From Ramlibacter aurantiacus (lineage in GTDB: Bacteria; Pseudomonadota; Gammaproteobacteria; Burkholderiales; Burkholderiaceae_C), in NCBI RefSeq assembly GCF_016722895.1, contig NZ_JAEQNA010000005.1, forward strand, positions 62,001 through 126,000: a stretch of DNA of 64,000 nt, given 5' to 3'. The position numbers were made by a program, and so were the translations under genes. Below the pieces are notes generated by a model. It had not been told where the DNA came from, made no database searches, and saw only the letters and a list, made by a program, of their open reading frames with translations. This document shows positions 189-44,780 of the stretch, piece by piece. The first letter of the stretch is position 1; each line of letters starts with the position of its first letter.

Positions 189-206
189 ATCAGCGGACTG
201 ACGAAT
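189..206. promoter_or_regulatory. Candidate MarR/PicR-type operator between divergent genes
   Basis: The 18-mer ATCAGCGGACTGACGAAT contains TCAG-CGGA-CTGA, which fits the TCAG-N4-CTNN pattern reported for the picolinate regulator PicR. It matches the perfect palindrome near 1013 at 14 of 18 positions. It lies 27 bp upstream of the MarR start at 233 and about 100 bp upstream of the leftward partial gene, a usual position for an autoregulatory site. Binding is not shown by sequence alone. Confidence 0.5.
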
Positions 207-232
207 ATGAGCACTTACGCGGGGGATACCAG

Positions 233-823
233 GTGGTTGAGCGAAACAAGTTGAAGGCCGACCGGTTGGCGAGGCAGAACGCCGCACGCCTGGCGGAAGC
301 GGCCGAGCCGCCGCGGGCCGACGTCGCGCTGGACGTGGAGCCGCCGGTGAGCGCCTCCATGTCGCCGAAGCAGCTTCTCTGGCGCCGGCCAGGCTTCCTG
401 GTGCGCCGGCTGCACCAGATCCATGTGGCGATGTTCCTGGAGGAGTGCTCCAGCCACCCTCTCACCCCGGTGCAGTTCGCAGTCCTGACGGCGCTGGCCG
501 TGCTGCCAGGGCTCGACCAGGTCTCGATCGGGCTGGAAGTCGGCCTGGACCGCACGACGACCGCCGACGTGGTCAAGCGCCTCGAGGAGAACGGCTTCGT
601 CAGGCGCACCGTGCACCCAGCCGACAAGCGTGCGCGCCAGGTATTCCTCACGAAGGCCGGACAGGTCGTCGTCGACGAGATGCACGCGAGCATGACGAGC
701 GCCCAAGAGCGGCTGCTGGCACCACTGACCCCGGCCGAGCGCGGGATGTTCATGCAGTTGCTCTCCAGGCTGGTCGAGGTGAACAACCAGTACGGCAGGA
801 CGACATTGAAGGGCATGGCCTGA
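233..823 (+). CDS. MarR-family transcriptional regulator (PicR-like paralogue 1)
   Basis: The 196-residue protein has a charged N-terminal tail of about 48 residues, then the signature WRRPGFLVRRLHQ, the helix-turn-helix region DRTTTADVVKRLEENGFV and a wing with the PADKRARQ basic loop. This is the usual winged-helix MarR layout with a long leader. The GTG at 233 is the first in-frame start after the upstream stop. Two more genes with the same RPGFL(I/V)RRLHQ block lie at 54701 and 55447 next to the picolinate genes, so the three are paralogues. The PicR-like box at 189-206 suggests autoregulation. It probably represses aromatic or pyridine catabolic genes; the ligand is unknown. Confidence 0.85.
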   Translation: MVERNKLKADRLARQNAARLAEAAEPPRADVALDVEPPVSASMSPKQLLWRRPGFLVRRLHQIHVAMFLEECSSHPLTPVQFAVLTALAVLPGLDQVSIGLEVGLDRTTTADVVKRLEENGFVRRTVHPADKRARQVFLTKAGQVVVDEMHASMTSAQERLLAPLTPAERGMFMQLLSRLVEVNNQYGRTTLKGMA

Positions 824-835
824 GCGTTCAGGCCA
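816..835. terminator. Bidirectional hairpin overlapping two convergent stop codons
   Basis: TGGCCTGA-GCGT-TCAGGCCA is a perfect 8-bp stem with a 4-nt loop. Its arms contain the TGA of the MarR gene (821-823) and, on the other strand, the TGA of the short leftward frame (828-830). There is no U-tract, so termination strength is uncertain. The shared stem supports the leftward frame being the 3' end of a former gene. Confidence 0.5.
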
Positions 836-972
836 GATAGACCGGGTCGTTGGCCACCACGCTGGTGCCGCACGCCACGCGGCGTTCCTTGAGCAAGAGC
901 CGGCCGTCCTCGCCGTGCCCTGGCTTCGCCATCGGCCAGACCGGATGTGCGGGCCACCTGCATCCATGTCAT
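828..972 (-). pseudogene. Decayed Rieske-type ferredoxin gene (ring-hydroxylase component remnant)
   Basis: An ATG at 972 has a good ribosome-binding site (AGGAG, 980-984). It opens with MTWMQVARTSGLADGE, which aligns with the first residues of the intact Rieske ferredoxin at 44190-44507 (MEWIRVASAQELGDDE). The frame is then lost; a second frame ending in VVANDPVYLA reaches the stop at 828. The CxH/CxxH cluster region is absent, so this is a frameshifted, internally deleted remnant of about 48 codons. A perfect operator palindrome lies 41 bp upstream, as for the intact gene. The N-terminal match is clear; the identity of the C-terminal part is not. Confidence 0.42.
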
Positions 973-1010
973 TTTCGAACTCCTGCTGCTGTTCGCTCTG
1001 GAAGCCAATC

Positions 1011-1030
1011 ATGTCAGTGCACTGACTAAT
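1011..1030. promoter_or_regulatory. Perfect palindromic MarR/PicR-type operator
   Basis: GTCAGTGCACTGAC at 1013-1026 is a perfect 14-bp palindrome followed by TAAT. It contains TCAG-TGCA-CTGA, an ideal case of TCAG-N4-CTNN. The ferredoxin remnant starts 41 bp away on the minus strand. The same TCAGT(G/A)CAC core occurs at 44543 and 44765 in the divergent picolinate promoter region. It looks like a binding site left in place after its target gene decayed. Confidence 0.6.
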
Positions 1031-1195
1031 ACGCAAGGCGGCCGCGTACGACGGGACGCTAGGGAAACTGCGGATTGCCCCGTCTTTTGCCGCAGTGTGA
1101 AAGGGGCTTTTTGCTTTGTAACAAGCTGCGCCTCGAGGCCTGTCCTTGGGCCGACATAAAGATCAGCATACAAACCAACGCGTTGCCCGATTAGG

Positions 1196-1876
1196 ATGCC
1201 AGGCCGCACCTCCATGCCCCTGTACCAAGCCACCCTCTTCGACTGCGATGGCGTTCTCGTGGACAGCGAGGGCATCACTCATGCCGTGCTGTCGGAACTG
1301 ATGGCCGAGCTCGACTGGTGCGTCTCACCCGAAGAGTGCGCCAGGATTTTTGGCGGCAAGGGGGTCGTCGAGGAGCGGGTACTGATCGAGACCCGCACCG
1401 GCCGCCCATTGCCGCCGGAGTGGGTCGCGCAGTTCCGCTCCAGGCGTGATGCCGAACTCAGGAGGAGCCTACGGCCGATTCCTCACGCCCTCGAAGCCGT
1501 CGCGCGGGCGCATGCCGCATACGGCGAACGCATGGCGGTCGCCTCCGGCGCCTACCGCAGCAAAGTGGAGATGCAGTTGCGTCTGTGTGGCTTGTCGGGC
1601 TATTTCGAAGGTCGGGTGTTCAGCGGCCAGGAGCAGGCTCGTTCCAAGCCGCATCCCGACGTGTACCTCGCCGCTGCCGCTGCGCTCGGGGTGGACCCGC
1701 GAGCTTGTGTCGTCATCGAAGACACGGTGACCGGCGTGGCTGCCGGCGTGGCTGCCGGGGCGACGGTCCTGGGCTACTGCCCACGCACCGCCGCCATCAG
1801 CGACGCGGGGGCGCTGGTGGCCGCCGGAGCGGCCCGCGTGATCGCGGACCTGCGCGAGCTCGACGCACTGATCTGA
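1196..1876 (+). CDS. HAD-superfamily hydrolase (subfamily IA, phosphatase/phosphoglucomutase-like)
   Basis: The 226-residue protein has motif I FDCDGVLVDSE near residues 15-25 (nucleophile DxD), a helical cap, motif II VASGAYR, motif III lysine in the SKPHPD stretch and motif IV VIEDTVTG. This order is typical of YieH/Gph-type phosphatases. The substrate cannot be deduced. Starts at 1196 and 1214 are both possible; the second gives a more usual N-terminus. It stands alone between the MarR locus and a convergent DUF3422 gene. Confidence 0.85.
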   Translation: MPGRTSMPLYQATLFDCDGVLVDSEGITHAVLSELMAELDWCVSPEECARIFGGKGVVEERVLIETRTGRPLPPEWVAQFRSRRDAELRRSLRPIPHALEAVARAHAAYGERMAVASGAYRSKVEMQLRLCGLSGYFEGRVFSGQEQARSKPHPDVYLAAAAALGVDPRACVVIEDTVTGVAAGVAAGATVLGYCPRTAAISDAGALVAAGAARVIADLRELDALI

Positions 1877-1930
1877 ACGCCCGCCTTCCGTCGGCAGCCC
1901 GGGCCGCACGATGGCCAAGCCGGCAGCCTA

Positions 1931-3226
1931 CTACGCCCCCTTGACCCGCTCGTGCAGCCGCCGCAAAGAGCCCCACACCGCGACGGCCACGATCGGGATC
2001 GCCACCGCCGCCGTCGATTCGGGCGTGAACGGCCAGCCCAGGGCTTGCGCGCCCTTGGCCAGGTACGTCACCAGGCCGACGATGTAGTAGGTGATGGCGG
2101 CCACCGAGAGGCCTTCCACCGTGGACTGCAGCTTCAGCTGCACGGCCTGGCGGCGGTTCATGGTCGCCAGCAGCTGCTGGCTGCTCTCCTGCTGCTCGAT
2201 CTCCACGCGGGTGCGCAGCAGGTTGCTGGCCCGCGACACCCGCTGCGACAGCGCGTCCTGCCGGCGCGCCGCCCATTCGCAGGTGCTGCGCGCGGGCGAC
2301 AGGCGCCGCTGGATGAAGTCGCCCAGCGTCTGCAGGCCCGGCAGTCGCGCCTCGCCGATGTCCGCCACGCGCCGGTCCACCAGCTGGAAATAGGCACTGC
2401 TGGCCGAGAAGCGCGAGTGGCTGGCGGCGTACTGGCTCTCGATCTCGCCGGCCAGCAGCGTCAATCGATCGAGCAACTGCGGCTCTTCATGCCGCGCGGC
2501 GTCCCGGATGGCGGCCGCCAGTGCGGCCAGTTCGTGTTCGGCCCGCCCCAGTGCCGCGAACGCGCGCCGCGCCACGGGCAACGCCAGCAGGGCCATCATG
2601 CGGTAGCTGTCGATCTCGATCAGCTGCTGCACCAGGCGACCCAGGCCACGCGCCGGCATGTCACCGGAGAGCAGCACCATGCGCGTGAAGCCGTCGGCGT
2701 GCAGTGCGAAGTCGGCGTAGACCTCGGCCCGCCCCCCGTCCAGCACCGAGCCGACCAGCGTGTCCTCCCGCAGCACCGTCCCAAGCTGCGGTGCGCAACC
2801 CGTGGGCGCCGCGCGCAGCACCCACAGGTGCAGACCGGCCAGCAGGCGGCCGGGCAAGCCGGCCAGCCAGGCCTGGGGCAGGTGGCGCAGCACGGTCTCG
2901 GGTTCGCGCTCGCCGAGGCCCGCCGGGTCGAGCGGGCACGAGAACGACCAGCTCACGAACTCGGTGTGCAGCTCCCACCGCAGGTGAAAGCCGGCCACGT
3001 CGACCCGCAGGTGCGTGCAGTCGCGGTCCGGAACCGGCAGGTGGTGGTCGCGCAGCAGCGAGGCCAGGTGCGCCCGGCTCGCCTCGCGCTGGTCGGCATC
3101 GCACAACAGCACCACATGGCTGATGGCCAGCGGCGCCGCCAGCGCCTCGGGCGGGCGGGCGTGGATCTCGTTGTGCAGGGCGGTGCGCTGCGGATGCGGC
3201 GCTGGCAGGTGGTGCGACAGGCTCAT
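1931..3226 (-). CDS. DUF3422 family protein with C-terminal membrane anchor
   Basis: The 431-residue protein opens with the family signature LHNEIHARPPE near residues 17-27. A long soluble region with coiled-coil-like helices follows (about 225-360). The C-terminus has two hydrophobic segments, around residues 370-390 and 400-420. This matches DUF3422 proteins, a common proteobacterial family of unknown function that looks like an inner-membrane-anchored cytoplasmic protein. It is convergent with the HAD gene and followed by the P450 gene on the same strand after a 177-bp gap without a recognised gene. Confidence 0.85.
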   Translation of the reverse strand: MSLSHHLPAPHPQRTALHNEIHARPPEALAAPLAISHVVLLCDADQREASRAHLASLLRDHHLPVPDRDCTHLRVDVAGFHLRWELHTEFVSWSFSCPLDPAGLGEREPETVLRHLPQAWLAGLPGRLLAGLHLWVLRAAPTGCAPQLGTVLREDTLVGSVLDGGRAEVYADFALHADGFTRMVLLSGDMPARGLGRLVQQLIEIDSYRMMALLALPVARRAFAALGRAEHELAALAAAIRDAARHEEPQLLDRLTLLAGEIESQYAASHSRFSASSAYFQLVDRRVADIGEARLPGLQTLGDFIQRRLSPARSTCEWAARRQDALSQRVSRASNLLRTRVEIEQQESSQQLLATMNRRQAVQLKLQSTVEGLSVAAITYYIVGLVTYLAKGAQALGWPFTPESTAAVAIPIVAVAVWGSLRRLHERVKGA

Positions 3227-3403
3227 CGGTCCTCCGGATGCCGATGCTAGTCCACTGAAACACTGCGACGAGGCGGTGCCGTGCGGCCCCTCACCACCCC
3301 TTCCAATGGTTCAGCCGACCGTGCGGCGATCCAGGCGCGTGGGGCCGCCGGGCGTGGTGAGCCACGAGCCGGATGCGCCAGATCGCACGGCGCTGCGGCT
3401 GCA

Positions 3404-5746: not shown

Positions 5747-5778
5747 GGCAGTCGCTCGAAAAGGAATTGCGGAAGTGT

Positions 5779-5795
5779 TTTACGCAAAGCGTAAA
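5779..5795. promoter_or_regulatory. IclR-type operator palindrome upstream of the P450 gene
   Basis: TTTACGC-AAA-GCGTAAA is a perfect inverted repeat with 7-bp arms, 33-49 bp upstream of the P450 start and 20 bp beyond the IclR stop. A near-identical 15-bp copy lies at 6671-6685. Two copies flanking one IclR gene suggest a shared regulator site (inference). Confidence 0.65.
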
Positions 5796-5814
5796 TTCGC
5801 CACAGGGTTTACCC

Positions 5815-6648
5815 CTAAACCATGGCCTGGTCGCCGCCGAACCCCATGGTGGCGCTGATGCCGCGGGCCTCTTCCACCACCTGGGGGCAGACCCGGCCGC
5901 CCGGACGGGTATCGAAGCCGTTGCTCGCCCCCAGGGCGGTGAGGACCGCGCAGACATGCCCGCGCGCATCGAAGATGGGCGCCGACACCGCGCTGATGCC
6001 CGCCAGCAGGGTGTCGTTGACGATGGCGCAGCCCTGTTCACGCACCTGCCTGCAGAGCCTGGCCACCGGCTCCGGCCCGGACAACATCGAGCGCTGCTCG
6101 GGCGTGGCCGCGTCGAATTCCGACTCGGCCTTCCGGCGCAGCTCGGCGTCGCCTGAGTAGGCCAGGAAGACCTGCCCCGTGGCCGACCAGAGCAAGGGCA
6201 TGACCGAGCCGGCGCGGATGTTCACCGTCACCGGCAGCGAGGGTTCCTCGATCCGCAGCACGGTCGGGCCGAGGTTGCCCATGACGGCGATGAAGCAGGT
6301 GACCTGCAGCGCTTCGCGCAGGTCCAGCAGCGCGCTCTCACCCAGGCGCACCGGATCGCATTGGCGCAGGGCCGCCAGGCCGATGCGGATGGATTCCGGG
6401 CCCAGCCGGTAGTGCTGCGTGGACGGGTCTTGCGCCACCAGCCCCTCCTGGATGAGGCTGACCAGGTAGCGGTGGACCTTGGACGCGCTTTCCTGCACAT
6501 CGGCGGCGATGGCGGTCAGGCTGGCGGATCCTCCCAGCCGCGCCAGCGCCTTGAGGATGGACATGCCGGTTTCCGCGGATTGAACGCGCTGGCGACGGTC
6601 GGTGAGGGAGGTGGCTGGCATGGGCGGGATCGAAGGAGTGGGTCGCAT
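5815..6648 (-). CDS. IclR-family transcriptional regulator
   Basis: The 277-residue protein has an N-terminal winged helix (about 25-90; QSAETGMSILKAL, then the recognition-helix region VQESASKVHRYL). The IclR effector domain follows (about 100-270). The ATG at 6648 is chosen; ATG 6621 is a shorter alternative and TTG 6678 a longer one lying inside the operator. It sits between the leftward P450 gene and the rightward Bug-receptor/CoA-transferase genes. TTACGC(A)AWGCGTAA palindromes on both sides suggest that it controls both units and possibly itself. IclR proteins of this type usually sense the aromatic substrate or a metabolite of it. Confidence 0.88.
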   Translation of the reverse strand: MRPTPSIPPMPATSLTDRRQRVQSAETGMSILKALARLGGSASLTAIAADVQESASKVHRYLVSLIQEGLVAQDPSTQHYRLGPESIRIGLAALRQCDPVRLGESALLDLREALQVTCFIAVMGNLGPTVLRIEEPSLPVTVNIRAGSVMPLLWSATGQVFLAYSGDAELRRKAESEFDAATPEQRSMLSGPEPVARLCRQVREQGCAIVNDTLLAGISAVSAPIFDARGHVCAVLTALGASNGFDTRPGGRVCPQVVEEARGISATMGFGGDQAMV

Positions 6649-6670
6649 CAGGGTAATCACCGTCCAGCTT

Positions 6671-6698
6671 TTACGCAATGCGTAATACCCTTGCGCAA
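6671..6698. promoter_or_regulatory. Second IclR-type operator palindrome, between the regulator and the Bug gene
   Basis: TTACGC-AAT-GCGTAA (6671-6685) repeats the palindrome at 5779-5795 with one spacer change. A further 8-bp palindrome, TTGCGCAA, follows at 6691-6698. The pair lies 23 bp above the IclR start and about 27-54 bp above the Bug start, so it can serve both divergent promoters. Confidence 0.62.
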
Positions 6699-6724
6699 TT
6701 CATTCATCCGTTCAAGGAGATCCC

Positions 6725-7702
6725 ATGTTGAACCGGCGTCACGCCACCGGACTGATCGCGGCACTGGCCGTCCTGGCAGGCAGCGGCCTGGCCCATGCCC
6801 AGAACTTCCCCGGCAAGCCCATCCGCTGGGTCGTGCCCTACCCGGCCGGCGGCGGCTCGGACTTTCTGGCGCGCACCATCGGCCAGCAACTGTCGACCCA
6901 GATCGGACAGCCGGTCCTGATCGAGAACAAGCCCGGCGGCAACACGGCCATCGCCGCGTCCGACGTGGCGCGCGCGGCGCCCGACGGCTACACCATCCTG
7001 TCCGCCGACAACGGCACCATGGTGTTCAACACGGCGCTGTACTCCAAGCTCTCCTACCACCCCGAGAAGAACCTGGTCCCGGTCACCTTGATGGGCAAGT
7101 TCCCCATGATCCTGGTGGTGGGGCCGAATTCAGAGTTCAAGGACGCGAAGGACTTCATCGCCAAGGCCAAGGCCGCGCCTGGCCGCATCAGCTACGGCTC
7201 GGCCGGCGCGGGCAGCCCGCACCACCTGGCCATGGAACTGCTGAAGGTCGACGCGGGCCTGCACATGGTGCACATCCCCTACCGCGGCGCCGCCCCGGCG
7301 CTCACGGACCTGGCCGGCGGGCAGGTCGCCGCGATGATGGTCGACCTGGCGGCCGGCGCCGGCTTCCTCAAGGGCGGCAAGGTGCGCCCGCTGGCCGTGG
7401 CCAACCCGACTCGCCTGCCCCAGCTGCCCGACGTGCCCACCTTCGCCGAGCTGGGCTTCAAGGGTGTCGAGGCCGCCGCCCAGGTGGGCGTGGTCGCCCC
7501 GGCCGGCACGCCCGCCGATGTGGTGGGCGCCCTGCAAAAGCAGATCGCCGCCGCCATCCAGACGCCGGCCATCCGCCAGAAGCTGATCGATTTCGGCATC
7601 GAGCCCGTGGGCAGCACGCCCCAGCAGTACGCGGACCTCAATCGCGCCGAGGTCCAGCGCTGGCACAAGCTGATTCGCGAGCAGAAGATCTCGCTGGATT
7701 GA
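6725..7702 (+). CDS. Bug-family periplasmic substrate-binding protein (tripartite tricarboxylate transporter receptor)
   Basis: The 325-residue protein has a Sec signal peptide (about 1-25, ending AHA-QN), the family motif YPAGGGSD (39-46) and the two-lobe Bug fold pattern, including PGG(N/A)..IA and a conserved Asp-rich stretch. Bug receptors bind carboxylates such as organic acids or aromatic acids in the periplasm. AAGGAG precedes the ATG. No TctA/TctB membrane partner is in the window. It is co-directional with the CaiB gene at 7941 and probably under the adjacent IclR regulator. The ligand may be the P450-pathway substrate (inference). Confidence 0.88.
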   Translation: MLNRRHATGLIAALAVLAGSGLAHAQNFPGKPIRWVVPYPAGGGSDFLARTIGQQLSTQIGQPVLIENKPGGNTAIAASDVARAAPDGYTILSADNGTMVFNTALYSKLSYHPEKNLVPVTLMGKFPMILVVGPNSEFKDAKDFIAKAKAAPGRISYGSAGAGSPHHLAMELLKVDAGLHMVHIPYRGAAPALTDLAGGQVAAMMVDLAAGAGFLKGGKVRPLAVANPTRLPQLPDVPTFAELGFKGVEAAAQVGVVAPAGTPADVVGALQKQIAAAIQTPAIRQKLIDFGIEPVGSTPQQYADLNRAEVQRWHKLIREQKISLD

Positions 7703-7940
7703 GGGTTGCGTCTCGGGGTGTCCACCGCGGGCGGCGCCGGGCGGGCCGCGCGACGGCCCCTTCGCGGCGGGCGCCAGTGGCAAGATCGTGAGCGACGACC
7801 CGGTCTTCATGCTCGAGTCGATGGGCCTTCGCACCGGCCCCGACCGGGCCAAGCTGATCGGGGCGAGCTGCCGGCTGCCCGAAGAGCCGCTCCCACGGCA
7901 TGGCGGCCGGTGCCGGCGTGCCCCTGAACGACCCCACACG

Positions 7941-9143: not shown

Positions 9144-9292
9144 CCGCGGGAACAGACCCACCGGGCGGCGCTGGAGGACATGGCCAGCATCGCCGAGTGA
9201 GCAGTTGCGAGGCGTTGGTCGAGAGGCTGGCGAAGGGTTGAAGCGGCACCGGTGCGTCGGCTCCGGTGCGCCGGCCTCGCCGCCTGCGCCGG

Positions 9293-10273
9293 TCACTCCA
9301 GCTTGAGGTCGAACTGCGCCTTCATCTGCCGGAACTGCTCCAGGTTGGAGGCGACGCGCTGCGCGAGCTGCTGGGAGCGCAGCAGTTGCGGCGACATCTG
9401 CCGGTCGATGTAGGCCTTCTGAATGTCCTTGTCGCCCAACGCCGTGGCGATGTGCCGCTCCAGCTGGGACACGATGGCCGGCGGCGTGCCCTTTGGCGCG
9501 AAGAAGGCGAACCACACCTCGGCATCGAAGTCCTTCAGCCCGAGCGCTTCGCCGAAGGTGGGTACGTCAGGCGCGCCCGGGAAACGCTCCTGTCCGCCCA
9601 CCGCCAGCAGCCGCAGCTTGCCCGCCTTGACCTGGGCATCGGCGTTCTGCACCGTCGTGAACAGCACCGGCACGGCATTGCTCACGCCATCCATGATGGC
9701 AGGGGCGCAGCCCTTGTAGGGCACGTGGATCATCGAGAGCTTCAGGGCCTGGGCGAAACGCAGGCCGATCAGGTGCTGCGGCGAGCCGTTGCCGCAGGAG
9801 GACCAGGCGACCTTGCCCTGGTTCTCGCGGGCGTGCGCGACCAGGTCCTGCAAGCTCTTGAACGGCAGCTGCGAATTGACGGCCAGGGCGACCGGGACGG
9901 ACGCGACACCCGCGATCGGGACCAGGTCGCGTTGGACCTCGAAACGCTGCGGACCGCCCAATGCTTCGTTGATGACGAGCGTGCTGTTGTTGACCAGCAG
10001 GGTATGGCCGTCCGGGTTGGCCCGGGCCACCATCTCCGAGCCGATACCGCCACTGGCGCCGGGCTTGCTGTCCACGACCACCGGCTCGCCCAGGAGCTGC
10101 GCCAGGCGGTTCTGCAGGACGCGGGCCACGAGGTCGGAGCCGCCCCCCGCCGGGTAGGGGTTGATCACCGTGACAGGTCGGCTGGGGTACTTGGCGGGCT
10201 GCGCGAAGGCGGCACCGACGGATGCGAGCACGGCCCCTGCGAACAGGGCACGGCAAAGAAGGTTGCGAATCAT
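9293..10273 (-). CDS. Bug-family periplasmic substrate-binding protein
   Basis: The 326-residue protein has a signal peptide (about 1-24, ending AFA-QP), then the motif YPAGGGSDLVA (40-50) and full-length Bug lobes. A strong ribosome-binding site, GAGGAG, precedes the ATG; the leader GGAGACAAGATGAT is shared with the Bug gene at 31819-32802. It is an orphan receptor with no membrane components nearby. The gene is convergent with the CoA-transferase, and the 149-bp gap between them contains nothing I can name. The ligand is unknown, presumably a carboxylate. Confidence 0.87.
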   Translation of the reverse strand: MIRNLLCRALFAGAVLASVGAAFAQPAKYPSRPVTVINPYPAGGGSDLVARVLQNRLAQLLGEPVVVDSKPGASGGIGSEMVARANPDGHTLLVNNSTLVINEALGGPQRFEVQRDLVPIAGVASVPVALAVNSQLPFKSLQDLVAHARENQGKVAWSSCGNGSPQHLIGLRFAQALKLSMIHVPYKGCAPAIMDGVSNAVPVLFTTVQNADAQVKAGKLRLLAVGGQERFPGAPDVPTFGEALGLKDFDAEVWFAFFAPKGTPPAIVSQLERHIATALGDKDIQKAYIDRQMSPQLLRSQQLAQRVASNLEQFRQMKAQFDLKLE

Positions 10274-26490: not shown

Positions 26491-27477
26491 ATGGGTACCT
26501 TGAACAAGTCGCTGGCCGCGCTGTGGTGTCTGGCTGCAGCCGCGCATGCGTGGGCCGCAGCCGACGACTACCCGACCAAGCCGGTGCGGCTGGTCATTCC
26601 GTTCGCGGCCGGCGGCGGTGCCGACATCACGGCGCGGATCGTCAGCCAGGAAATGGGCGAGGCCCTGGGACAGCGATTCGTGGTCGAGAACCGCCCCGGC
26701 GCCAGCAACGTGATCGCCACGCAGCACGTGGCGCGGGCCGAGCCCGATGGCTACACCCTGCTGTGGATCACCGACGTGCACTCGATCAACGAGGCGCTCA
26801 ACCGCCTGGGCAAGCTCCCGAGCAAGCTGCCCTACCAGTCGCTCAAGGATTTCGAGCCGGTCGGCCAGGTGATCGCGCTGCAGATCGCCCTGATGGCCTC
26901 CAAGAAGAGCGGCATCGCATCGGTGCAGGACCTCACGGCGCGAGCCCGCAGCGGAGGCGTTCCGCTCAATGCCGGCCACAACGGCGACGGCAGCCCGCAC
27001 TACCTGGCCTTCCTGCGCATGCAACAGGTCGGCGGCTACAAGCTCAACGAGATTCCGTATCCCGGTTCCGGCCCCGCCGCGGTGGCCGTGCAGGCCGGCG
27101 AAATCGACCTGGCCTTCGGCACCGTGGGATCGGCGCTGCAGTTGTCCAAGTCCAACCGGGTGAACCTGCTGGCCGTTTCCAGCGCCGAGCGTGACACGCT
27201 GGCCCCGGACGTGCCCACGCTGGCCGAATCGGGCTACAACGGGCTGTCGATCCAGAGCTGGATGGGCGTGCTCGCACCCAAGGGCGTGCCCGCGGACCGC
27301 CTGGCCAAGCTGAATGCCGCGCTGGCCAAGGCGCTCGCCGCGCCGGAGGTCGTCAAGCAGTTGCAGGCCGGCGGCACGACGCCGAAGGCGGGCACGCGCG
27401 AGCAGTTCGGGCAGTTGATCGCCAGGGACGCCGACAAGATCGAAGCGATCTACAAGGGCTCGGCGAAGCAGCCATGA
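26491..27477 (+). CDS. Bug-family periplasmic substrate-binding protein
   Basis: The 328-residue protein has a signal peptide (about 1-23), the family motif IPFAAGGGADITARI and complete lobes. Strong GAGGAG precedes the ATG at 26491. It is the first gene of a four-gene operon, and its stop overlaps the next start by ATGA. Its ligand is probably the aromatic acid catabolised by the downstream genes (inference). No TctAB partner is encoded nearby. Confidence 0.88.
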   Translation: MGTLNKSLAALWCLAAAAHAWAAADDYPTKPVRLVIPFAAGGGADITARIVSQEMGEALGQRFVVENRPGASNVIATQHVARAEPDGYTLLWITDVHSINEALNRLGKLPSKLPYQSLKDFEPVGQVIALQIALMASKKSGIASVQDLTARARSGGVPLNAGHNGDGSPHYLAFLRMQQVGGYKLNEIPYPGSGPAAVAVQAGEIDLAFGTVGSALQLSKSNRVNLLAVSSAERDTLAPDVPTLAESGYNGLSIQSWMGVLAPKGVPADRLAKLNAALAKALAAPEVVKQLQAGGTTPKAGTREQFGQLIARDADKIEAIYKGSAKQP

Positions 27478-31818: not shown

Positions 31819-32802
31819 CTACTCCACCTTGCCGATCTTCTTGACCACGTCGGCCATGCGGCCGATGTCCTGCTTCACATACCGGTCGAACTCCGGTGCG
31901 TCCATGTACTGGATCGGGCTGCCGGCGCCGAGGATGACCTGCTTGACCTTCGGGTCCGCCGCCGCGGCCTTCGCTGCGGCGCGAACCTTCTGGAGCACGG
32001 GCTCGGGCATGCCGGCCGGGGCGAACAAGCCGGACCATTGCGCGTACTGCGCGTCGTAGCCGGCGTCCTTCAGGGACGGCACGTCGGGCATGCTCTCCAG
32101 CCGGCCCGTGGCCCAGTGGCCCAGCACCTTGACCTTGCCGGCCTTGACGTGCTGCAGGACGGTGGCGGGCCCGGTGGACAGCGCCTGGACCTGGCCGGCC
32201 AGCAAGGCCACCACGGCCGGCCCGGCCCCGGTGAACGGCACGTGCGTGAGCTTGATGCCGGCGTTCTGGGCGAGGATTTCCATGGGCACGTGCATGGTGC
32301 CGTAGTTGCCGGACGAGCCGTAGTTGATCGCGCCGGGCCGCTTCTTCGCGTCTTCCACGAAATCCTTCACCGTGTTCCAGGGCGCGTCGGCCCGCACCGC
32401 CAGCACGGTGGGGTCGGCGGTGAAACGGGCGATGGGCGTCAGCGCATCGAACGCGTACATCGGCGAGCGGCCCAGGAGCTTGTCCGCCTCGGGCAGCACG
32501 CTGTACGAAGACAGGGCCATCAGGAGCGTGTAGCCATCGGGCGCCGACTTGGCCGCCTGGGCCATCCCGATGCCGCCACCGGCCCCACCCCGGTTCTCGA
32601 TCACGACCGGCTGGCCCAGTTCGCGCGACATGGACTCGGCCACCGGCCGCGCCACCGTGTCGGCCAGGCCTCCCGGCGGGAAGGGCACCACGATCTTGAT
32701 GGGACGGTTGGGGTAGTCCGTGGCCTGGGCCTGGACGGACACGGCGCCGGCGCAAAGCAAGGCCGCGACGGCGATTCGAAAGGTGGCACGTACGTTGATC
32801 AT
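31819..32802 (-). CDS. Bug-family periplasmic substrate-binding protein
   Basis: The 327-residue protein has a signal peptide (about 1-26, ending VQA-QA), the motif FPPGGLADTVAR in place of the more common AGGG form, and full-length lobes. AGGAGACAAG precedes the ATG, sharing a leader with the Bug gene at 9293-10273. It lies 37 bp downstream of an FAH-family gene on the same strand, so the two probably form a unit under the GntR regulator at 33842. No membrane subunits are nearby. Confidence 0.87.
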   Translation of the reverse strand: MINVRATFRIAVAALLCAGAVSVQAQATDYPNRPIKIVVPFPPGGLADTVARPVAESMSRELGQPVVIENRGGAGGGIGMAQAAKSAPDGYTLLMALSSYSVLPEADKLLGRSPMYAFDALTPIARFTADPTVLAVRADAPWNTVKDFVEDAKKRPGAINYGSSGNYGTMHVPMEILAQNAGIKLTHVPFTGAGPAVVALLAGQVQALSTGPATVLQHVKAGKVKVLGHWATGRLESMPDVPSLKDAGYDAQYAQWSGLFAPAGMPEPVLQKVRAAAKAAAADPKVKQVILGAGSPIQYMDAPEFDRYVKQDIGRMADVVKKIGKVE

Positions 32803-34510: not shown

Positions 34511-34518
34511 GGGCAGGC

Positions 34519-38321: not shown

Positions 38322-38364
38322 GTCGGTCTCCAGGAGGGCGGGGTTGAAGGAAGCGACGTGCGGG

Positions 38365-39006
38365 TCAGGCGCCCACCGCACGCGCGCCGGCAGCGGTGGC
38401 TTCCAGGGCGGCGTCGCGGGTCATCAGGGTGGCGTATTTCTGGTCCATGTCGAACAGGTTGGCTTCGTGGGCCTGCAGCGAGCGATCGCCCACGCAGTCG
38501 GTGACGACCAGCGGGCGGAAGCCGTGGCACATGGCATCGACCACGCTGGCCCGCACACAGCCGCTGGTGGTGCAGCCGGCGATCAGCAGGGTCTGCACGC
38601 CGCGGTTGGCGAGCCAGCTTGCAAGGGGCGTGCCAAAGAAGCCCGACGGGTTGGTCTTGCGCACCACCAGTTCACCGGCCACGGGCTGCAACTGCGACAC
38701 GATCTGGCTGCCCGGGCTGTCCTCGTGCAGGGCCAGGAGGGTCGGCACCTTGAGGGTGAAGACGTTGGCGTCGGCGCCGTCGTCCTGGTAGACGATGCGG
38801 GTGTGCGCGATCGGCCACTGGCGCGTGCGCGCCTGGGCGAGCAGCGTGCGCGTGCACTCGATGGCCGGGCCGATGTTGCCGCCGCCAAAGGCCGCCGGGT
38901 CGGCGAAGCCGTTGACGAAGTCGACGATGAGCAAGCCATAAGGCGGCTTGGGCTCCATCGTGGCGCCGAAGCCCTGGTTGCGGTAGGTGGCTTCGTCGCT
39001 TCTCAC
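38365..39006 (-). CDS. picF: Maleamate amidase (cysteine hydrolase, isochorismatase fold)
   Basis: The 213-residue protein hydrolyses maleamate to maleate and ammonia in the 2,5-dihydroxypyridine lower pathway. The cysteine-hydrolase triad is present: Asp29 in LLIVDFVN, Lys117 in VVRKTNPSG and Cys150 in the AGCTTSGC loop. The family also includes N-carbamoylsarcosine amidases, but the neighbour picD strongly favours maleamate amidase (NicF/PicF). The start is GTG 39006, overlapping the picD stop as GTGA, so the two are translationally coupled. Confidence 0.9.
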   Translation of the reverse strand: MRSDEATYRNQGFGATMEPKPPYGLLIVDFVNGFADPAAFGGGNIGPAIECTRTLLAQARTRQWPIAHTRIVYQDDGADANVFTLKVPTLLALHEDSPGSQIVSQLQPVAGELVVRKTNPSGFFGTPLASWLANRGVQTLLIAGCTTSGCVRASVVDAMCHGFRPLVVTDCVGDRSLQAHEANLFDMDQKYATLMTRDAALEATAAGARAVGA

Positions 39007-40046
39007 TGGAACGCCTCGTCGATCACCTTGCCATCACGCACCACGATGGTGTCGTCCACCCGCACCGTGCAGTTGCGCAGCGGGATGTCCAGGTGGCAGG
39101 CCGTCTTGCGCTTTCCGCCGGCCTCGTTGTTGGGCCCGAGCGAGAACAGGAAGTTGCCCTCGAAGGCGCGCGCATCCATCGCGATGGTTCGCTCGCGGTC
39201 GTACAGCGACAGCGTGTGCCAGTAGCACCGCGGCTGCATGCCCCAGCCGATGTGCGACATGGCATAGGCCTCGGGGTCCTTGTAGGCCGCCATGAACTCA
39301 CGCAGGAGGTCGGCATCGATGCCGCCCTCGATGCTGCGCACGAAGCCTTCGCTGACCTTCAAGGTGACCTTGTCCGAGACATAGTTCTTCTGCGGCAGCA
39401 GGATGTCGCCGCGGTCGATCACGATGGTGCCGTCGCTGCCGCCCTCGTTGGCGAAGGTGAAGAGGAAGCCGCTGGGCCAGTGGTCCCACCGCCCGGGCTC
39501 CTCGACGAATCCGTATTCGCAGATGGTGGGGAATTCCCCGATCTTGAAGGTGACATCGGTGCCGGCGGGCGACGTCACGTGCATGGTCCTGGCCCGCTTG
39601 AGCAATCGCGAGGCGGCCAGCACGCGCTGCCGGTCCGCCTCGGTGGGCACCGTGCGCACGAGCACCTCCGGCGGCTCGACCGCCAGGAGGATCTTGGTTC
39701 CCGAGTCCAGGATGTCCATCTGCTCGGGCGAGAACAGCAGCAGCATCAGGTCCAGCACGATGTCGCTGTTCTTCAGCGCCGAGATCGCCGCCGTGTTGCC
39801 GGTCAGGGGGGTCTCCCCGAGGTAGTTCAGCAGGTCGCGGCTGGTGGCCTTCTCGGCATTGATCGGCGGCAGCTCGATCTTGGTGACGATGGCCCCGGCC
39901 CGCTGCGCCGAGATGGTGGCCGCACGTAGCGTCAACGGATCCGTGTGCGGTCCGCAAAGAATGGAGACGGTCTGGCCCGCCTGCACCTGGCTGAGCCTGA
40001 GCACTTCGTCCCAGGCGCTGATCATCTGGTGGTCACTGACCGGCAT
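39003..40046 (-). CDS. picD: 2,5-Dihydroxypyridine 5,6-dioxygenase
   Basis: The 347-residue iron dioxygenase has the leucine-aminopeptidase-M29-like fold and opens the ring of 2,5-dihydroxypyridine to N-formylmaleamate. His265 (MSHIG), His318 and Asp320 (CHLD) fall at the same positions as the metal ligands of NicX from Pseudomonas putida, strong support for the assignment. AAAGGATG precedes the ATG. It lies 49 bp downstream of picC, with a rho-independent terminator in between. picF follows with coupled translation. Confidence 0.94.
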   Translation of the reverse strand: MPVSDHQMISAWDEVLRLSQVQAGQTVSILCGPHTDPLTLRAATISAQRAGAIVTKIELPPINAEKATSRDLLNYLGETPLTGNTAAISALKNSDIVLDLMLLLFSPEQMDILDSGTKILLAVEPPEVLVRTVPTEADRQRVLAASRLLKRARTMHVTSPAGTDVTFKIGEFPTICEYGFVEEPGRWDHWPSGFLFTFANEGGSDGTIVIDRGDILLPQKNYVSDKVTLKVSEGFVRSIEGGIDADLLREFMAAYKDPEAYAMSHIGWGMQPRCYWHTLSLYDRERTIAMDARAFEGNFLFSLGPNNEAGGKRKTACHLDIPLRNCTVRVDDTIVVRDGKVIDEAFQ

Positions 40047-40069
40047 GGTTCATCCTTTCTGCGTGGTAG

Positions 40070-40108
40070 ACCAGGGAAAAAGAAACCGGCCGGCGCTAGA
40101 CGCCGGCC
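40070..40108 (-). terminator. Rho-independent terminator between picC and picD
   Basis: Read on the minus strand, GGCCGGCG-TCTAG-CGCCGGCC is a perfect 8-bp GC-rich stem with a 5-nt loop, followed by GGTTTCTTTTT. The loop contains the TAG stop of picC. This is a textbook terminator placed inside a run of pathway genes, 24 bp before picD. It should lower picDF and ABC-importer expression relative to picC and the oxygenase genes, or be controlled by readthrough (inference). Confidence 0.8.
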
Positions 40109-41067
40109 AGCTTGAAGAGCCGGCGCGCGTTGCCGTGGCAAACGAGCGCGCGCGTGCGGTCGTCCAGCGGCGCCTGCTCGATGAACGCGCAGGCCTCGGC
40201 GGTCGACTCATAGGGATAGTCCACCGAGAACAGCACGCCTTCGGCGCCCATTTCGCCGATCGCCCCGACCAGTGACGGCGCCGAGCACACGCCCGAGGTC
40301 GTGATCAGGATGTTGCGGCCGAAGTATTCGCTGGGCTTGCGCGCCAGCTCGATGCCCATGGGATAAGCGGCGAAGCGGCTGTCCAGGCGCCAGCGCTGGA
40401 ACGGGAGGAACTCGCCCATGTGGCCCAGCAGCAGCGTCAGCCGGGGGAAGCGGTCGAAGACCCCCCCGAAGAGCAGGCGCAGCGCGTGGCCGGCGGTCTC
40501 GACGCCCCAACCCCAGGTGGCGCCGTGCAGCACGGGCATGCCGTCGAGCAGGGCAGGCACCTGGCTGAAGCTGGCCGGGTGCAGGTAGATCGGCACATCG
40601 AGCGCCTGTGCGCGCTCCCAGAACACGTCGAACGCCGCGCCCTCGTAGTAGCGACCGAGGGTGTGGCCGTTGACCATAGCTCCCTTGAAGCCGAGCTGGC
40701 CGACGGTGCGCTCGAGCTCGTCGGCGGCCGCCTGCGGGTCCTGCAGCGCGACGTGGGCGAATGCGCCGTAGCGCGTCGGATGCCGCGAGACGCGCTCGGC
40801 CAGGAACTCGTTGTTCTCGCGCGCACGGCGGATCGCCAGCGCCGCATCGGGCTCGGCCTGCACACCCGGGGCCGTCTGCGAGAGCACCACGTATTCGATG
40901 CTGCCGGCGTCCATTTCCTCGATGCGGCGCGAATCGAAGTCGGTGAGGCGCGCGCCGAGGTCGGCGCGCACGTCGGGGGCGAGCAGCTGGGTGAAGCCCT
41001 TGGAGTACTCGGCGAAGCCGGGCGCCGAGAAGTGCTCCTCGAGCGCGATCTTGGGAATGCGGTTCAT
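40096..41067 (-). CDS. picC: Amidohydrolase-family decarboxylase, probable 3,6-dihydroxypicolinate decarboxylase
   Basis: The 323-residue amidohydrolase-2 protein has the N-terminal metal motif KIALEEHF (Glu10, His12), a metal His in YLHPASF, GHMGEFLPF, the late catalytic Asp in SVDYPYES and the end block GNARRLFKL. It resembles gamma-resorcylate and 2,3-dihydroxybenzoate decarboxylases, which remove a ring carboxylate non-oxidatively. In the pic pathway PicC gives 2,5-dihydroxypyridine, the substrate of the next gene product. It starts 20 bp after the Rieske small subunit gene on the same strand. Confidence 0.87.
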   Translation of the reverse strand: MNRIPKIALEEHFSAPGFAEYSKGFTQLLAPDVRADLGARLTDFDSRRIEEMDAGSIEYVVLSQTAPGVQAEPDAALAIRRARENNEFLAERVSRHPTRYGAFAHVALQDPQAAADELERTVGQLGFKGAMVNGHTLGRYYEGAAFDVFWERAQALDVPIYLHPASFSQVPALLDGMPVLHGATWGWGVETAGHALRLLFGGVFDRFPRLTLLLGHMGEFLPFQRWRLDSRFAAYPMGIELARKPSEYFGRNILITTSGVCSAPSLVGAIGEMGAEGVLFSVDYPYESTAEACAFIEQAPLDDRTRALVCHGNARRLFKLAGV

Positions 41068-41087
41068 GCTCGGTTCTCTCGATTCGC

Positions 41088-41603
41088 TCAGACGGGGTAG
41101 GCCAGCGCAGTCGCCAGCACCTCGGTGTCGTGGACCACCTGCCGGTCCGCGAGCAGCAGCTGCTCGCCGCGGCGCACGAAGCGGTCATAGTAGGTGCCGG
41201 CCAGGTGCACGGTGGACGGCCCCTCGATGAGGGTTTGCACGAGGATGAACGGCGTCTGGGCCTCGACCGCCCCATCGGTCTCGTCGACCACCCGGGTGAC
41301 ACCCAGCAGGTGCAGCATGTGCCGCGGGGCGAACATCTGCGAGTGCGCCACCGCCAGCGCGCGGTCCCGGATCATGTCCGCGCCCTCGCAGTACACGAGC
41401 CCGACCGGCAGATCCAGCAGCGCGTTCTCGCGCGAGGTGACGCGGTAGGTAGCCTCCTCGGCGAAGAAGTCGGGCCAGCGCTCGACGTCGTTGGCATCCA
41501 GGGCCGCGCAGTACTCGGCGTTGAAGGTCTCGATCTCGGCGCGCAACTGGGCGGCGCGCTGGGGACCGACGGTAGCGGGGCGGTAGGCGAGTCTTTCCTT
41601 CAT
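41088..41603 (-). CDS. Ring-hydroxylating oxygenase small (beta) subunit
   Basis: The 171-residue SnoaL/NTF2-fold protein is typical of aromatic-ring hydroxylating dioxygenase beta subunits, with FNAEYCAALDANDVERWPDFF and MLHLLGVTRV regions. It stabilises the alpha subunit and has no cofactor. Its ATG 41603 overlaps the large-subunit stop (ATGA). It is one of four components of the proposed 6-hydroxypicolinate monooxygenase (PicB). Which picB number applies is not assigned here. Confidence 0.9.
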   Translation of the reverse strand: MKERLAYRPATVGPQRAAQLRAEIETFNAEYCAALDANDVERWPDFFAEEATYRVTSRENALLDLPVGLVYCEGADMIRDRALAVAHSQMFAPRHMLHLLGVTRVVDETDGAVEAQTPFILVQTLIEGPSTVHLAGTYYDRFVRRGEQLLLADRQVVHDTEVLATALAYPV

Positions 41604-42910
41604 TGCGCGGCTCCTGCGACGGGAATACCCATGACCCCGCGGTAATACTCGTAAAGCGAGCGGATGCACGATTCGGAAATCAGCCCGTTGGACGTGCCGA
41701 CGGTGCCGGAATCGAGCTTGAGGACGTTCACGTCCGTGCTGGAACGGCGCAGTCCTTCCTGGACGAACTTCATGGCTTCGTTGTCCTCCAGGCCCAGGAA
41801 GCCGGCCGGTCCCATCAGGTTCCCCTGGCGCAGCCGGTGGCGGGTCATCTCGGGGGTGTCGTCTTCGTAGCCGAACATCGTCCACTGCATGATCATGCTG
41901 TGCGGGCCGTTCGGGATGATCTGCCGCACGCCCAGCGTGTTCATCTCGCGCTGCACCACCAGGTTGGGCCAGACCGTCATCATGGTCACCGACCAGGGCG
42001 AGTCGAACTCGCGCACGAACTCCAGGAAGCGCTCGTCGCGCAGGCGCAGCTTCTCGTGGAACGAGCGCATCTCGGCCTTGGTCTCGGCCGACACCTTCGC
42101 GTACTTGTCCTCCTCCTTCGCGGATCCCATGTAGGCATGGCGGCCGTGCGCCTTGTCGGCGAGCATGATCGACTTGTTCCCGGCCACCAGCAGGCCGAAC
42201 ACCACGAGGAACGAGTGCAGCAGGGTCGCGTGGTACGGATCCTTGAGGTTCTCGTGGTACATCTTCCAGTTGCACGGAAGCTCGTTGCGGTAGTAGCCGA
42301 GGATCTTCAGCTTCTTGCCCGTGAACGTGACGTCGAACTCGTCGACCATCTCCTGCGTGAGGTACTCCTCCAGCGGCGGCGTCTGGTCCGAATAGGTGGC
42401 GAACACCACCCCGTGGCGCGTGGTCACGCGCAGCTGGCGGGCGCCGTGGTCGGCGTTCTGGAAATCCTTGGGCATGCCGCCCTGCTTGTTGACTCCGCGC
42501 TTGAAGGGCACCCCCTGCAGGTTGCCCTTGAGGTCGTAGGACCACTGGTGGTAGGGGCAGACGAACTCCTTGGCGTTGCCCTGGTTGTTGCGGCAGAACT
42601 CCGCCCCCCGGTGGGCACAGCGGTTCTCGAAGACCGAGATGCTGTGGTCTTCGGCGCGGGCGACCACCACCGGCACCGAGCCGACGTAGCCGCGCTTGTA
42701 GTCACCCGGGTTGGGGATTTCGGCCTCCAGCGCAACGAAGTTCCAGGTGTCGCCGCGGAAGATGCGGTCCATCTCGCGGTCGTACAGGTCCTGGCTGGTA
42801 TAGACCCAGTCGGGGATGGTGTGGAGCGCATCGGCCGGCCAGATGCATTGCTCGAACGGCGGGTTCTTCGCGGCATCGGTCACGCCGATGACGGACTGCG
42901 ATTGGTACAT
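41600..42910 (-). CDS. Rieske non-heme iron oxygenase large (alpha) subunit
   Basis: The 436-residue protein has an N-terminal Rieske domain with CAH and CPYH cluster motifs (ligands in RCAHRGAEFC and FVCPYHQWS). The catalytic domain has the mononuclear-iron region NLKDPYHATLLH carrying the two His ligands. Architecture and size match salicylate/anthranilate-type hydroxylase alpha subunits. With the beta subunit, reductase and ferredoxin encoded alongside, it fits the four-component PicB enzyme that 3-hydroxylates 6-hydroxypicolinate. A benzoate-type substrate cannot be excluded from sequence alone. It lies 26 bp after the reductase gene. Confidence 0.9.
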   Translation of the reverse strand: MYQSQSVIGVTDAAKNPPFEQCIWPADALHTIPDWVYTSQDLYDREMDRIFRGDTWNFVALEAEIPNPGDYKRGYVGSVPVVVARAEDHSISVFENRCAHRGAEFCRNNQGNAKEFVCPYHQWSYDLKGNLQGVPFKRGVNKQGGMPKDFQNADHGARQLRVTTRHGVVFATYSDQTPPLEEYLTQEMVDEFDVTFTGKKLKILGYYRNELPCNWKMYHENLKDPYHATLLHSFLVVFGLLVAGNKSIMLADKAHGRHAYMGSAKEEDKYAKVSAETKAEMRSFHEKLRLRDERFLEFVREFDSPWSVTMMTVWPNLVVQREMNTLGVRQIIPNGPHSMIMQWTMFGYEDDTPEMTRHRLRQGNLMGPAGFLGLEDNEAMKFVQEGLRRSSTDVNVLKLDSGTVGTSNGLISESCIRSLYEYYRGVMGIPVAGAAQ

Positions 42911-42936
42911 GGATGCTCCAGGGAGTCGCGGTGAGG

Positions 42937-44193
42937 TTAAAGGGTGGCCGCGGGCTCGGCAAGCAACTGCTTGGCCCAGGCACGCAGATTGAGGTGGTCC
43001 TGTGCGAACTCGTGCATGGGCACCGGCCGGGCGCGGTCGAACAGCGGCCGCAGGGCGCGCAGCTCACCGCCGGCGTTGAGCGCGACACCCTGCATGGGCA
43101 CGCCGCCCCGATGCCCGATCCACAGGGCCTTGCCGCTGGCGGGGTCGCCTCGGCGCACGTAGTCGAGGCCGGCGGCAGGCAGGCCCAGCATCTGGATGTT
43201 GTGCCGGCCCTGCTCGGTCCAGAACCAGGGAAACGGCGGCACCGGTGGCGCCGAGCCGAGCATGGCGGCAGCCGCGATACGCGCCTGCTCGTTCGCGTTC
43301 TGCCAGGACTCCAGGCGCGTGGGCTGCTGCTGGCCCGGCCTCTGCTGGCTGGCGCAGTCGCCGCAGGCATAGACGTTCGGGTCGCTGGTGCGGCAGGACG
43401 CGTCGACCAGCACGCCTGCTCCGGGCGCGATGGCCAGGCCGGCCTCCCGGGCCAGGGCATCGTTCGGGGACATGCCGACACACACCAGCAGCTCATCGAC
43501 CTCGAGGCGCTCGCCGTCGCCGGTCACCAGCAGCAAAGGCCTGTCGCCCATCGGTTCGACGCGGGTCACCGACGTGCCCAGCCGCAGATGCGCGCCTTCG
43601 CTGCGCAACGTGGCTTCGAGCCAGCCCGATACCTCCGCCGGCAGGAAGCGCGTCAGCAGCGCCGGTGCGCTCTCGATGACCGTCACCACGGCGCCGGCAG
43701 CCAGGGCCGAATGCGCCACCTCGAGCCCGAGGAAGCCGCCACCCAGGATGGCGATGCGGGGTCGTGCCCGCAGCGATGCGCGCAACCGGCGCGCGTCGTC
43801 CACCGTTCGCAGGTAATGGATACGCTCGCCGCCGCACGGCGCCCAGGGCAGCAAGCGGGGCTCGCCGCCGGTCGCCAGCAGGCACTTGTCGTAATCGATG
43901 GTCCGGCCGCCCGCGAGGTGCAGCCGCCGCTGCGCGGGATCCAGTCGCACGGCCTCGATGCCGCTGAGCAGGTCCACGTTGCAGCGCAACCAGTCATCGT
44001 CGGCCAGGACATCCAGGCGGGGCTCCTCGGCCCCGACCAGCACGGCCTTGGACAAGGGCGGTCGCTCGTACGGACGATGCGGCTCGCGCCCCACCATCAC
44101 GATGGCACCGTCATGGCCGCCATCGCGCAAGGCATGCGCCGCCACGGCCGCGGACTGCCCGGCACCCACGATGACGATGCACCCGGTGGTCAC
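42937..44193 (-). CDS. FAD-dependent ferredoxin reductase of the Rieske oxygenase
   Basis: The 418-residue protein is of the glutathione-reductase-like ferredoxin reductase family: an N-terminal FAD motif (IVIVGAGQSAAV), the NAD motif ILGGGFLGLEVA and the second FAD motif VYACGDCAS. It passes electrons from NAD(P)H to the adjacent Rieske ferredoxin. The start is GTG 44193, overlapping the ferredoxin stop (GTGA); a longer in-frame extension lacks homology. It is the second gene of the leftward pic operon. Confidence 0.9.
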   Translation of the reverse strand: MTTGCIVIVGAGQSAAVAAHALRDGGHDGAIVMVGREPHRPYERPPLSKAVLVGAEEPRLDVLADDDWLRCNVDLLSGIEAVRLDPAQRRLHLAGGRTIDYDKCLLATGGEPRLLPWAPCGGERIHYLRTVDDARRLRASLRARPRIAILGGGFLGLEVAHSALAAGAVVTVIESAPALLTRFLPAEVSGWLEATLRSEGAHLRLGTSVTRVEPMGDRPLLLVTGDGERLEVDELLVCVGMSPNDALAREAGLAIAPGAGVLVDASCRTSDPNVYACGDCASQQRPGQQQPTRLESWQNANEQARIAAAAMLGSAPPVPPFPWFWTEQGRHNIQMLGLPAAGLDYVRRGDPASGKALWIGHRGGVPMQGVALNAGGELRALRPLFDRARPVPMHEFAQDHLNLRAWAKQLLAEPAATL

Positions 44194-44507
44194 TGGCTCG
44201 CGGGCGATCGGACGTAGACGTCGTCGCCTTCCTGTTTGACGGCGTGCGTGCGCACATCGACGGTGACCGGCGCGCACATCGCCTTGCCGGTGCGCAGGTC
44301 GAACCGCCCCTGGTGCAGCGGACACTCGATGCAGCCGTCTTCGACGTAGCCATCCGAGAGCAGCGCTTCAGCGTGCGTGCACATGTTGTCCGTGGCGAAG
44401 AACTCGCCGGCGGAGCGATACAGCGCGATGCGGTATCCCGCCACGTTGACCGCCTTGACTTCGTCATCGCCGAGCTCTTGCGCGGACGCAACCCTGATCC
44501 ATTCCAT
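44190..44507 (-). CDS. Rieske-type [2Fe-2S] ferredoxin of the oxygenase system
   Basis: The 105-residue protein has cluster motifs CTHAE and CPLH (CxH and CxxH) in the middle, as in three-component dioxygenase ferredoxins. It carries electrons from the reductase to the oxygenase. It is the first gene of the leftward pic operon. Its promoter (TTGAAC-18 bp-TAATAT) and an operator lie at 44543-44590. A degraded relative with the same N-terminus sits at 828-972. Confidence 0.92.
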   Translation of the reverse strand: MEWIRVASAQELGDDEVKAVNVAGYRIALYRSAGEFFATDNMCTHAEALLSDGYVEDGCIECPLHQGRFDLRTGKAMCAPVTVDVRTHAVKQEGDDVYVRSPASQ

Positions 44508-44542
44508 CGGCTCATCCAGTCGCGGCGTCGCCGCGCAAATAA

Positions 44543-44590
44543 ATTAGTCAGTACACGTCCATATTAGCGCCAGATCGGGCGGACGTTCAA
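44543..44590 (-). promoter_or_regulatory. Promoter and PicR-like operator of the leftward pic operon
   Basis: On the minus strand, TTGAAC (44585-44590), an 18-bp spacer and TAATAT (44561-44566) form a good sigma-70 promoter. Just downstream is GTGTACTGACTAAT (44543-44556), which shares the CTGACTAAT half with the perfect palindrome at 1013. It deviates by one conserved base from TCAG-N4-CTNN. The position at the transcription start suits repression. Confidence 0.65.
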
Positions 44591-44757
44591 GGGGTTATCT
44601 CTGCCCCCCGGGGTTTTTTAGGGCCCGGCGCGGTCCGGTTGCGCAGGCACCAATCCGATGACCGTGGCACCAATAGAGGGACTGCGGATGCACCGACCTT
44701 TGCGGACTTCGGGTTTGTCCTAGCCGAGGGGGACTTCCGGTCGCCGACGGCTCCTTC

Positions 44758-44780
44758 CATAATCGATCAGTACACTGCTC
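44758..44780 (+). promoter_or_regulatory. PicR-type operator and -10-like box for the rightward pic operon
   Basis: CATAAT (44758-44763) is followed at once by GATCAGTACACTGCTC (44765-44780), which contains TCAG-TACA-CTGC and fits TCAG-N4-CTNN exactly. The first gene starts at 44905, so the leader is about 130 nt. No strong -35 box is seen. Together with the site at 44543 this gives two boxes in the divergent region, as described for the pic cluster of Alcaligenes faecalis JQ135. The rest of 44508-44904 holds no gene; it includes a CCCCGGGG-T6 stretch near 44604-44617 of unclear meaning. Confidence 0.65.

Follow-up and report, generated by a model that had tools for sequence, protein, structure and literature searches.

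Short palindromic boxes in a 64,000-nucleotide stretch of the Ramlibacter aurantiacus genome (assembly GCF_016722895.1, contig NZ_JAEQNA010000005.1, positions 62,001 to 126,000; "the window" below is this whole stretch as analyzed) probably serve as PicR-type operators that join two branches of genes about 44 kb apart. In the reading that we favor, at a probability of roughly 0.6, MarR-type repressors would be released from these boxes by 6-hydroxypicolinate, and the left branch would feed the right. On the right stands a complete picolinate (pic) cluster; the left branch combines a PicR-type MarR gene at the edge of the window, what appear to be the ends of a deleted picB operon, and an intact six-gene operon just beyond the edge. 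An initial annotation of this DNA had proposed one regulon spread over about 45 kb, with an outlying, partly decayed branch at the left end. Box conservation, the identity of the left MarR as a PicR-type paralogue and the ends of a picB operon with a box in its expected place support that proposal; the single regulon itself is an inference. The left branch does appear to have lost its picB operon, but it is more than a decayed remnant, because the intact operon, with a perfect box of its own, stands just outside the window.

Boxes at the two loci and in promoters of other genomes

At the left locus, the box TCAGCGGACTGA (190-201) stands 31 bp 5′ of the GTG start (233) of the left MarR gene, and the perfect palindrome TCAGTGCACTGA (1014-1025) stands 42 bp 5′ of the remnant ferredoxin start. 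A further perfect box, TCAGCATGCTGA, lies outside the window at G000:C24:61617-61628, 384 bp before the window's first base and 130 bp 5′ of the six-gene operon. In the pic cluster, the box TCAGTACACTGC (44767-44778) stands between the divergent operons, ~138 bp 5′ of DctP, and a degraded box, TCAGTACACGTC (44548-44559), stands 41 bp 5′ of the intact ferredoxin start; the boxes in the window carry no strand assignment. The initial annotation had already placed the sites at 190, 1014 (as a perfect palindrome) and 44767 correctly, and its one-mismatch site exists as well, three bases to the right of the 44545-44556 given for it.

To obtain an independent set of promoters, we collected the neighborhoods of genes whose products are related to the window's three MarR proteins (the best 80 of 291 confirmed loci, plus six further ones) and took from them the promoters of picB-ferredoxin or picC; dropping 14 near-duplicates reduced these from 53 to 39, the window and R. 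rhizophilus were excluded, and plasmid matches were kept out of the counts. When 9,216 inverted 5-mer repeats with spacers of 0-8 were compared over this set, TCAGT-N2-ACTGA came out on top: it is perfect in 14 of the 39 promoters and present with at most one mismatch in 25, against a mean of 0.47 over all 1,024 half-sites at the same spacing with one mismatch allowed. In many genomes, conserved boxes of this kind precede picB-ferredoxin and picC in the vicinity of PicR-type MarR genes (TCAGCATACTGA, for instance, stands 5′ of picC in Alcaligenes faecalis AU14 and two other Alcaligenes). The boxes described here show the conserved palindrome 5′ of picB and picC that marks a PicR-type operator, the one at 44548 only in part.

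We then built a matrix from 50 sites of other genomes, some of which may be chance matches, with four flanking bases on each side. Over the ~64,000 positions of the window it ranks 1014 first, 44767 second, 190 third, 1163 fourth and 44548 fifth; with the 12-base core only, 1014 and 44767 stay first and second, 57378 is third, 190 is fourth and 44548 falls to 25th. Over 84 kb, the first four ranks go to 1014, C24:61617, 44767 and 190. A coding site elsewhere in the genome scores just as high (see below). The position ranked fourth in the window, TCAGCATACAAA at 1163-1174, is a half-like box just 5′ of a HAD-like hydrolase gene (1196).

The right branch

The right branch (38365-55971) brings together a hydroxylase, a ring oxygenase, a PicC-like decarboxylase and lower-pathway genes, and is a complete pic cluster. 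Its left-going operon (38365-44507, minus strand) encodes an isochorismatase, a PicD-like protein, a PicC-like amidohydrolase and the PicB-like beta, alpha (41600-42910), reductase and ferredoxin components, and its right-going operon (44905-54704, plus strand) encodes DctP, a three-subunit molybdenum hydroxylase (PicA-like), DctQ, DctM, a PicG-like and a PicE-like protein. The pic names are presumptive, being partly assigned by domain and gene order; the PicD-like protein has no domain match. Two MarR genes follow, both on the plus strand, at 54701-55369 and 55540-55971. R. rhizophilus carries the same cluster at 80-95% protein identity and has kept both boxes of the divergent promoter (44548 and 44767) base for base, the degraded arm of 44548 included. 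PMC10142695 describes the picolinate pathway and the organization of the pic cluster, and gives 6-hydroxypicolinate as the substrate of PicB.

Between the second and third MarR genes, CCGGTACACTGC at 55408-55419 differs from the 44767 box by two mismatches; it is the sole candidate 5′ of the third MarR gene (55540), and we do not count it as a box. To the right of the cluster, a short open reading frame (ORF; 57631-58026) matches just the last part of the class II aldolase family and is possibly a gene fragment.

Kinship of the three MarR proteins

All three MarR proteins of the window score above the Pfam MarR cut-off, and in a tree of 49 rows all three group with MarRs encoded beside pic genes, which places them among the PicR-type proteins. 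The left MarR (gene at 233-823, plus strand; 44 and 47% identity to the two pic MarRs) falls with MarRs from loci of Cupriavidus, Variovorax, Polaromonas and Pseudomonas; its branch is long, with a support (91/88) below the program's strict mark, and the two pic MarRs group with those of R. rhizophilus, Variovorax sp. E3 and G177. By this tree, the left MarR appears to belong to another PicR lineage than the other two. The recognition-helix segments of the three proteins are nearly identical, so it is plausible that they share operators. In the first helix, the third MarR (55540-55971) reads QIA, as against QIH or QVH in the other two and in the Alcaligenes PicR-type proteins, and its ligand binding may therefore differ. 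The left MarR is also a distant sequence relative of PcaV (4fht, 3e-19) and of 6pco/6pcp (~1e-13), which we take to be BpsR structures.

Remains of a picB operon at the left locus

The initial annotation had seen a ferredoxin remnant with a box at the left end. Remnant and box are both present, but the remnant consists of two pieces on the minus strand: the C-terminal end of a PicB beta-subunit gene (828-911), for which the case is strong (~25 residues; none of 300 shuffled peptides scores as high), and, less strongly, the probable start of a PicB ferredoxin gene (919-972; a score this high is reached by 1 of 300 shuffled peptides). The intact counterpart of this arrangement is seen in nine of the 11 Cupriavidus-type loci (L083-L092, L109), where the MarR gene is followed by a convergent operon for beta, alpha, reductase and ferredoxin; of the other two, L085 shows no picB and L089 ends at a contig edge. 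In all nine loci that have the operon, TCAGTACACTGA stands 53-62 bp 5′ of ferredoxin. From the beta stop to the ferredoxin start there are ~3.4 kb in L083 versus ~145 bp in the window, so ~3.3 kb are gone. The left locus would seem to keep both ends of a deleted picB operon, with the box in its expected place. Among 60 genomes of the genus, no relative of the left MarR exceeds 56% identity apart from the protein's own genome, and among the matches listed what is matched elsewhere of the stretch 1-1200 is confined to the MarR gene or to short pieces.

The six-gene operon beyond the window

In the 20 kb examined further left of the window, a six-gene operon (C24:54960-61487, or L212:12959-19486; minus strand) runs divergently from the left MarR gene and encodes the transport protein TctC, a decarboxylase-like protein, flavin adenine dinucleotide (FAD), iron-sulphur and molybdenum subunits, and CoxG. 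It is intact: the MarR gene and all six operon genes are open frames. The window itself holds five genes for TctC-like binding proteins (6725-7702, 9293-10273, 26491-27477, 31819-32802 and 60301-61227), each ~30-34% identical to the operon's TctC.

The decarboxylase-like protein (330 residues) matches a solved 4,5-dihydroxyphthalate decarboxylase (E 6e-102), its sole solved match at E<=0.01; Pfam gives a sub-threshold match and NCBIfam none. In 399 genomes of the family (its own included), no other match above 53% identity was found among the matches listed. Close relatives (77-86% identity) are present in five of 33 genomes picked from the fetched MarR loci, namely three Alcaligenes, one Polaromonas and one Comamonadaceae metagenome-assembled genome (MAG). 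All five have PicR-type loci, the six-gene order is kept in all five, and in four a perfect box stands 5′ of TctC. In the Comamonadaceae MAG (L274) and A. pakistanensis (L278), the operon lies within the pic cluster. For A. faecalis AU14 and Alcaligenes sp. SORT26, the operon is adjoined by a PicR paralogue (L276:3778-4224 and L277:16492-16938) and lies ~17 and ~20 kb from the PicR-type genes and pic genes of L105 and L107; operon and regulator are here paired in parallel but separately. The 20 kb fetched around the operon of Polaromonas sp. OV174 hold no pic gene; this genome has them on a different contig (L096). In the tree, the operon-side PicR paralogues of AU14 and SORT26 are close to other Alcaligenes PicR-type proteins.

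Quinolinate is a precursor of nicotinamide adenine dinucleotide (NAD) and a neuroactive tryptophan metabolite, and enzymes that convert it to 6-hydroxypicolinate were reportedly described in 2003; the literature searched (mostly without subscription journals, and so not proof of absence) showed no gene assignment for them. The left operon unites a molybdenum hydroxylase with a phthalate-decarboxylase-like enzyme, as a gene set of the Alcaligenes sp. UK21 type should. According to a review (PMC6644310), the UK21 decarboxylase converts 6-hydroxyquinolinate to 6-hydroxypicolinic acid and bears some similarity to phthalate decarboxylases, a group that the review assigns to the UbiD family. By analogy, the left operon most likely converts quinolinate to 6-hydroxypicolinate, through hydroxylation at C6 and decarboxylation at C3. 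We lean slightly toward the fuller proposal that these are quinolinate-to-6-hydroxypicolinate genes within a PicR operator network, run by an orphaned PicR paralogue and dependent on the pic genes 44 kb away.

A model for the two branches

MarR repressors typically bind palindromes that overlap promoters and are released by a ligand, according to PMC12016517. In our model, each MarR dimer would sit on a box near the transcription start and block transcription, and 6-hydroxypicolinate would release it, opening both branches; the three MarRs may exert cross-control over one another's genes. The left operon would turn quinolinate into 6-hydroxypicolinate, on which PicB of the right branch acts. 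Formerly, the left branch would have had a picB operon of its own (in the order MarR>, <beta, <alpha, <reductase, <ferredoxin), of which an internal deletion of ~3.3 kb would have removed nearly all and spared the MarR gene and the boxes. This loss presumably came about because the other picB made the left copy redundant: if the left branch feeds the right, a picB of its own would be dispensable. The locus would then show a catabolic regulon being pruned, with enzyme genes lost and the regulator and operators kept.

Alternative explanations

That a GC-rich genome has produced these palindromes by chance is very improbable, although simple counts lend the idea some color. The loose core TCAGN4CT occurs 16 times in the window versus 23.6 in shuffles, which is background, and TCAGTRCACTGA with up to two mismatches occurs 11 times versus 4.7 expected, a mild enrichment (11 is reached in 4 of 100 shuffles); judged by pattern counting alone, the question would stay open. 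We therefore reject TCAG-N4-CTNN, the form in which the boxes had initially been described, as a stand-alone predictor. On whether the motif exceeds background genome-wide, the bare form predicts nothing, but TCAGYNNRCTGA has 22 distinct sites in the genome (5.1 Mb), versus 8 for the reversed pattern and ~11 from base composition. The left locus holds three of these 22 within 1.41 kb (two in the window, one just outside), all non-coding, where base composition predicts ~0.003 for this pattern, which was fixed after the sites were known. The ORF check covered 16 of the 22 sites, namely the 15 that came with fetched loci plus C24:126928. Of the 15, 11 fall within well-scoring coding ORFs, which speaks for chance; outside such ORFs are C1:933426 and the three sites of the left locus. 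Three sites were rejected as regulon members: TCAGTTCACTGA at C24:126928 sits inside an ORF that we read as a short-chain dehydrogenase, C1:879597 is within a coding ORF, and C1:1392711 is within what is presumably a phosphate-transporter gene. An independent matrix ranks the boxes at the top, however, and their positions are conserved across genomes: the boxes are genuine and, as elements of promoters, not a product of chance.

The same operators could also serve two separate regulons, with the left MarR acting on its local operon and boxes only, the two right MarRs on the pic cluster only, and no cross-talk between them. The different lineage of the left MarR, its 44-47% identity to the others and the fact that its nearest box and genes are local would fit such a division, which we nevertheless regard as unlikely, given that the recognition-helix segments of the three proteins are nearly the same and that one matrix fits both places. 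Quite improbable, in our view, is that the left boxes are dead relics, the MarR and its sites having become irrelevant after the picB deletion. It is true that picB is destroyed at the left locus and that the commonest, TCAGTATACTGA-like form is not the one seen in the boxes at 190 and C24:61617; yet the left MarR gene and the six operon genes are all open frames, and a perfect palindrome stands 5′ of the operon. For the left operon, a substrate other than quinolinate (some other pyridine or aromatic acid, such as pyridine-2,4- or 2,5-dicarboxylate or a phthalate) is somewhat doubtful. The best solved relative of its decarboxylase is a phthalate-pathway enzyme, and by chemical reasoning the 2,4- or 2,5-diacid, once hydroxylated and decarboxylated, could yield 6-hydroxypicolinate as well, but the UK21 enzymology concerns quinolinate, and the operon is found in Alcaligenes and lies in or near pic genes in four of the five genomes.

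Several observations weigh against a two-branch network of PicR-type operators. A search around the boxes for consensus sigma-70 promoters found none. On the minus strand, the palindrome at 190 can also be read as a weak terminator-like hairpin (0.6 such expected). The box at 44548 is degraded, and because of its core-only rank the case for it rests on its flanks and its conservation. Elsewhere in the genome, one site in a coding region scores 20.8, equal to the real boxes, and a second one 17.6; three positions scoring at least 11.7 (top 15.3) occur in 54 kb of other R. aurantiacus DNA, so position beside relevant genes is part of the case for the boxes. In the Comamonadaceae MAG, one of the five operon relatives, no box stands 5′ of TctC. 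Finally, the close decarboxylase is absent from 28 of the 33 genomes searched through MarR loci, and the operon is therefore an optional add-on.

Comparison with known systems

The operon order is shared by three Alcaligenes, a Polaromonas, a Comamonadaceae MAG (without the box) and the Ramlibacter genome described here, and an operon that is both box-linked and conserved in order is a directly testable candidate for the genes that convert quinolinate to 6-hydroxypicolinate. It resembles the UK21 system (Uchida et al. 2003) in combining a hydroxylase with a phthalate-decarboxylase-like enzyme giving 6-hydroxypicolinate, and homologous operons occur in Alcaligenes genomes; for the Ramlibacter operon, quinolinate is a predicted substrate. 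BpsR/NicR-type proteins and PcaV (PDB 4fht) are likewise MarR regulators of ring-acid catabolism and distant relatives of the left MarR, but they govern other clusters and their sequence similarity to it is low; BpsR is released by 6-hydroxynicotinate, according to PMC6837509. Another close system is the PicR regulon of Alcaligenes faecalis JQ135 (Xu et al. 2022), which reportedly has MarR-type regulators, pic genes and TCAG...CTGA-like boxes in common with the locus described here. R. aurantiacus differs in having three MarR paralogues in a single genome, a second picB that has decayed, an additional operon and a layout in two branches separated by 44 kb.

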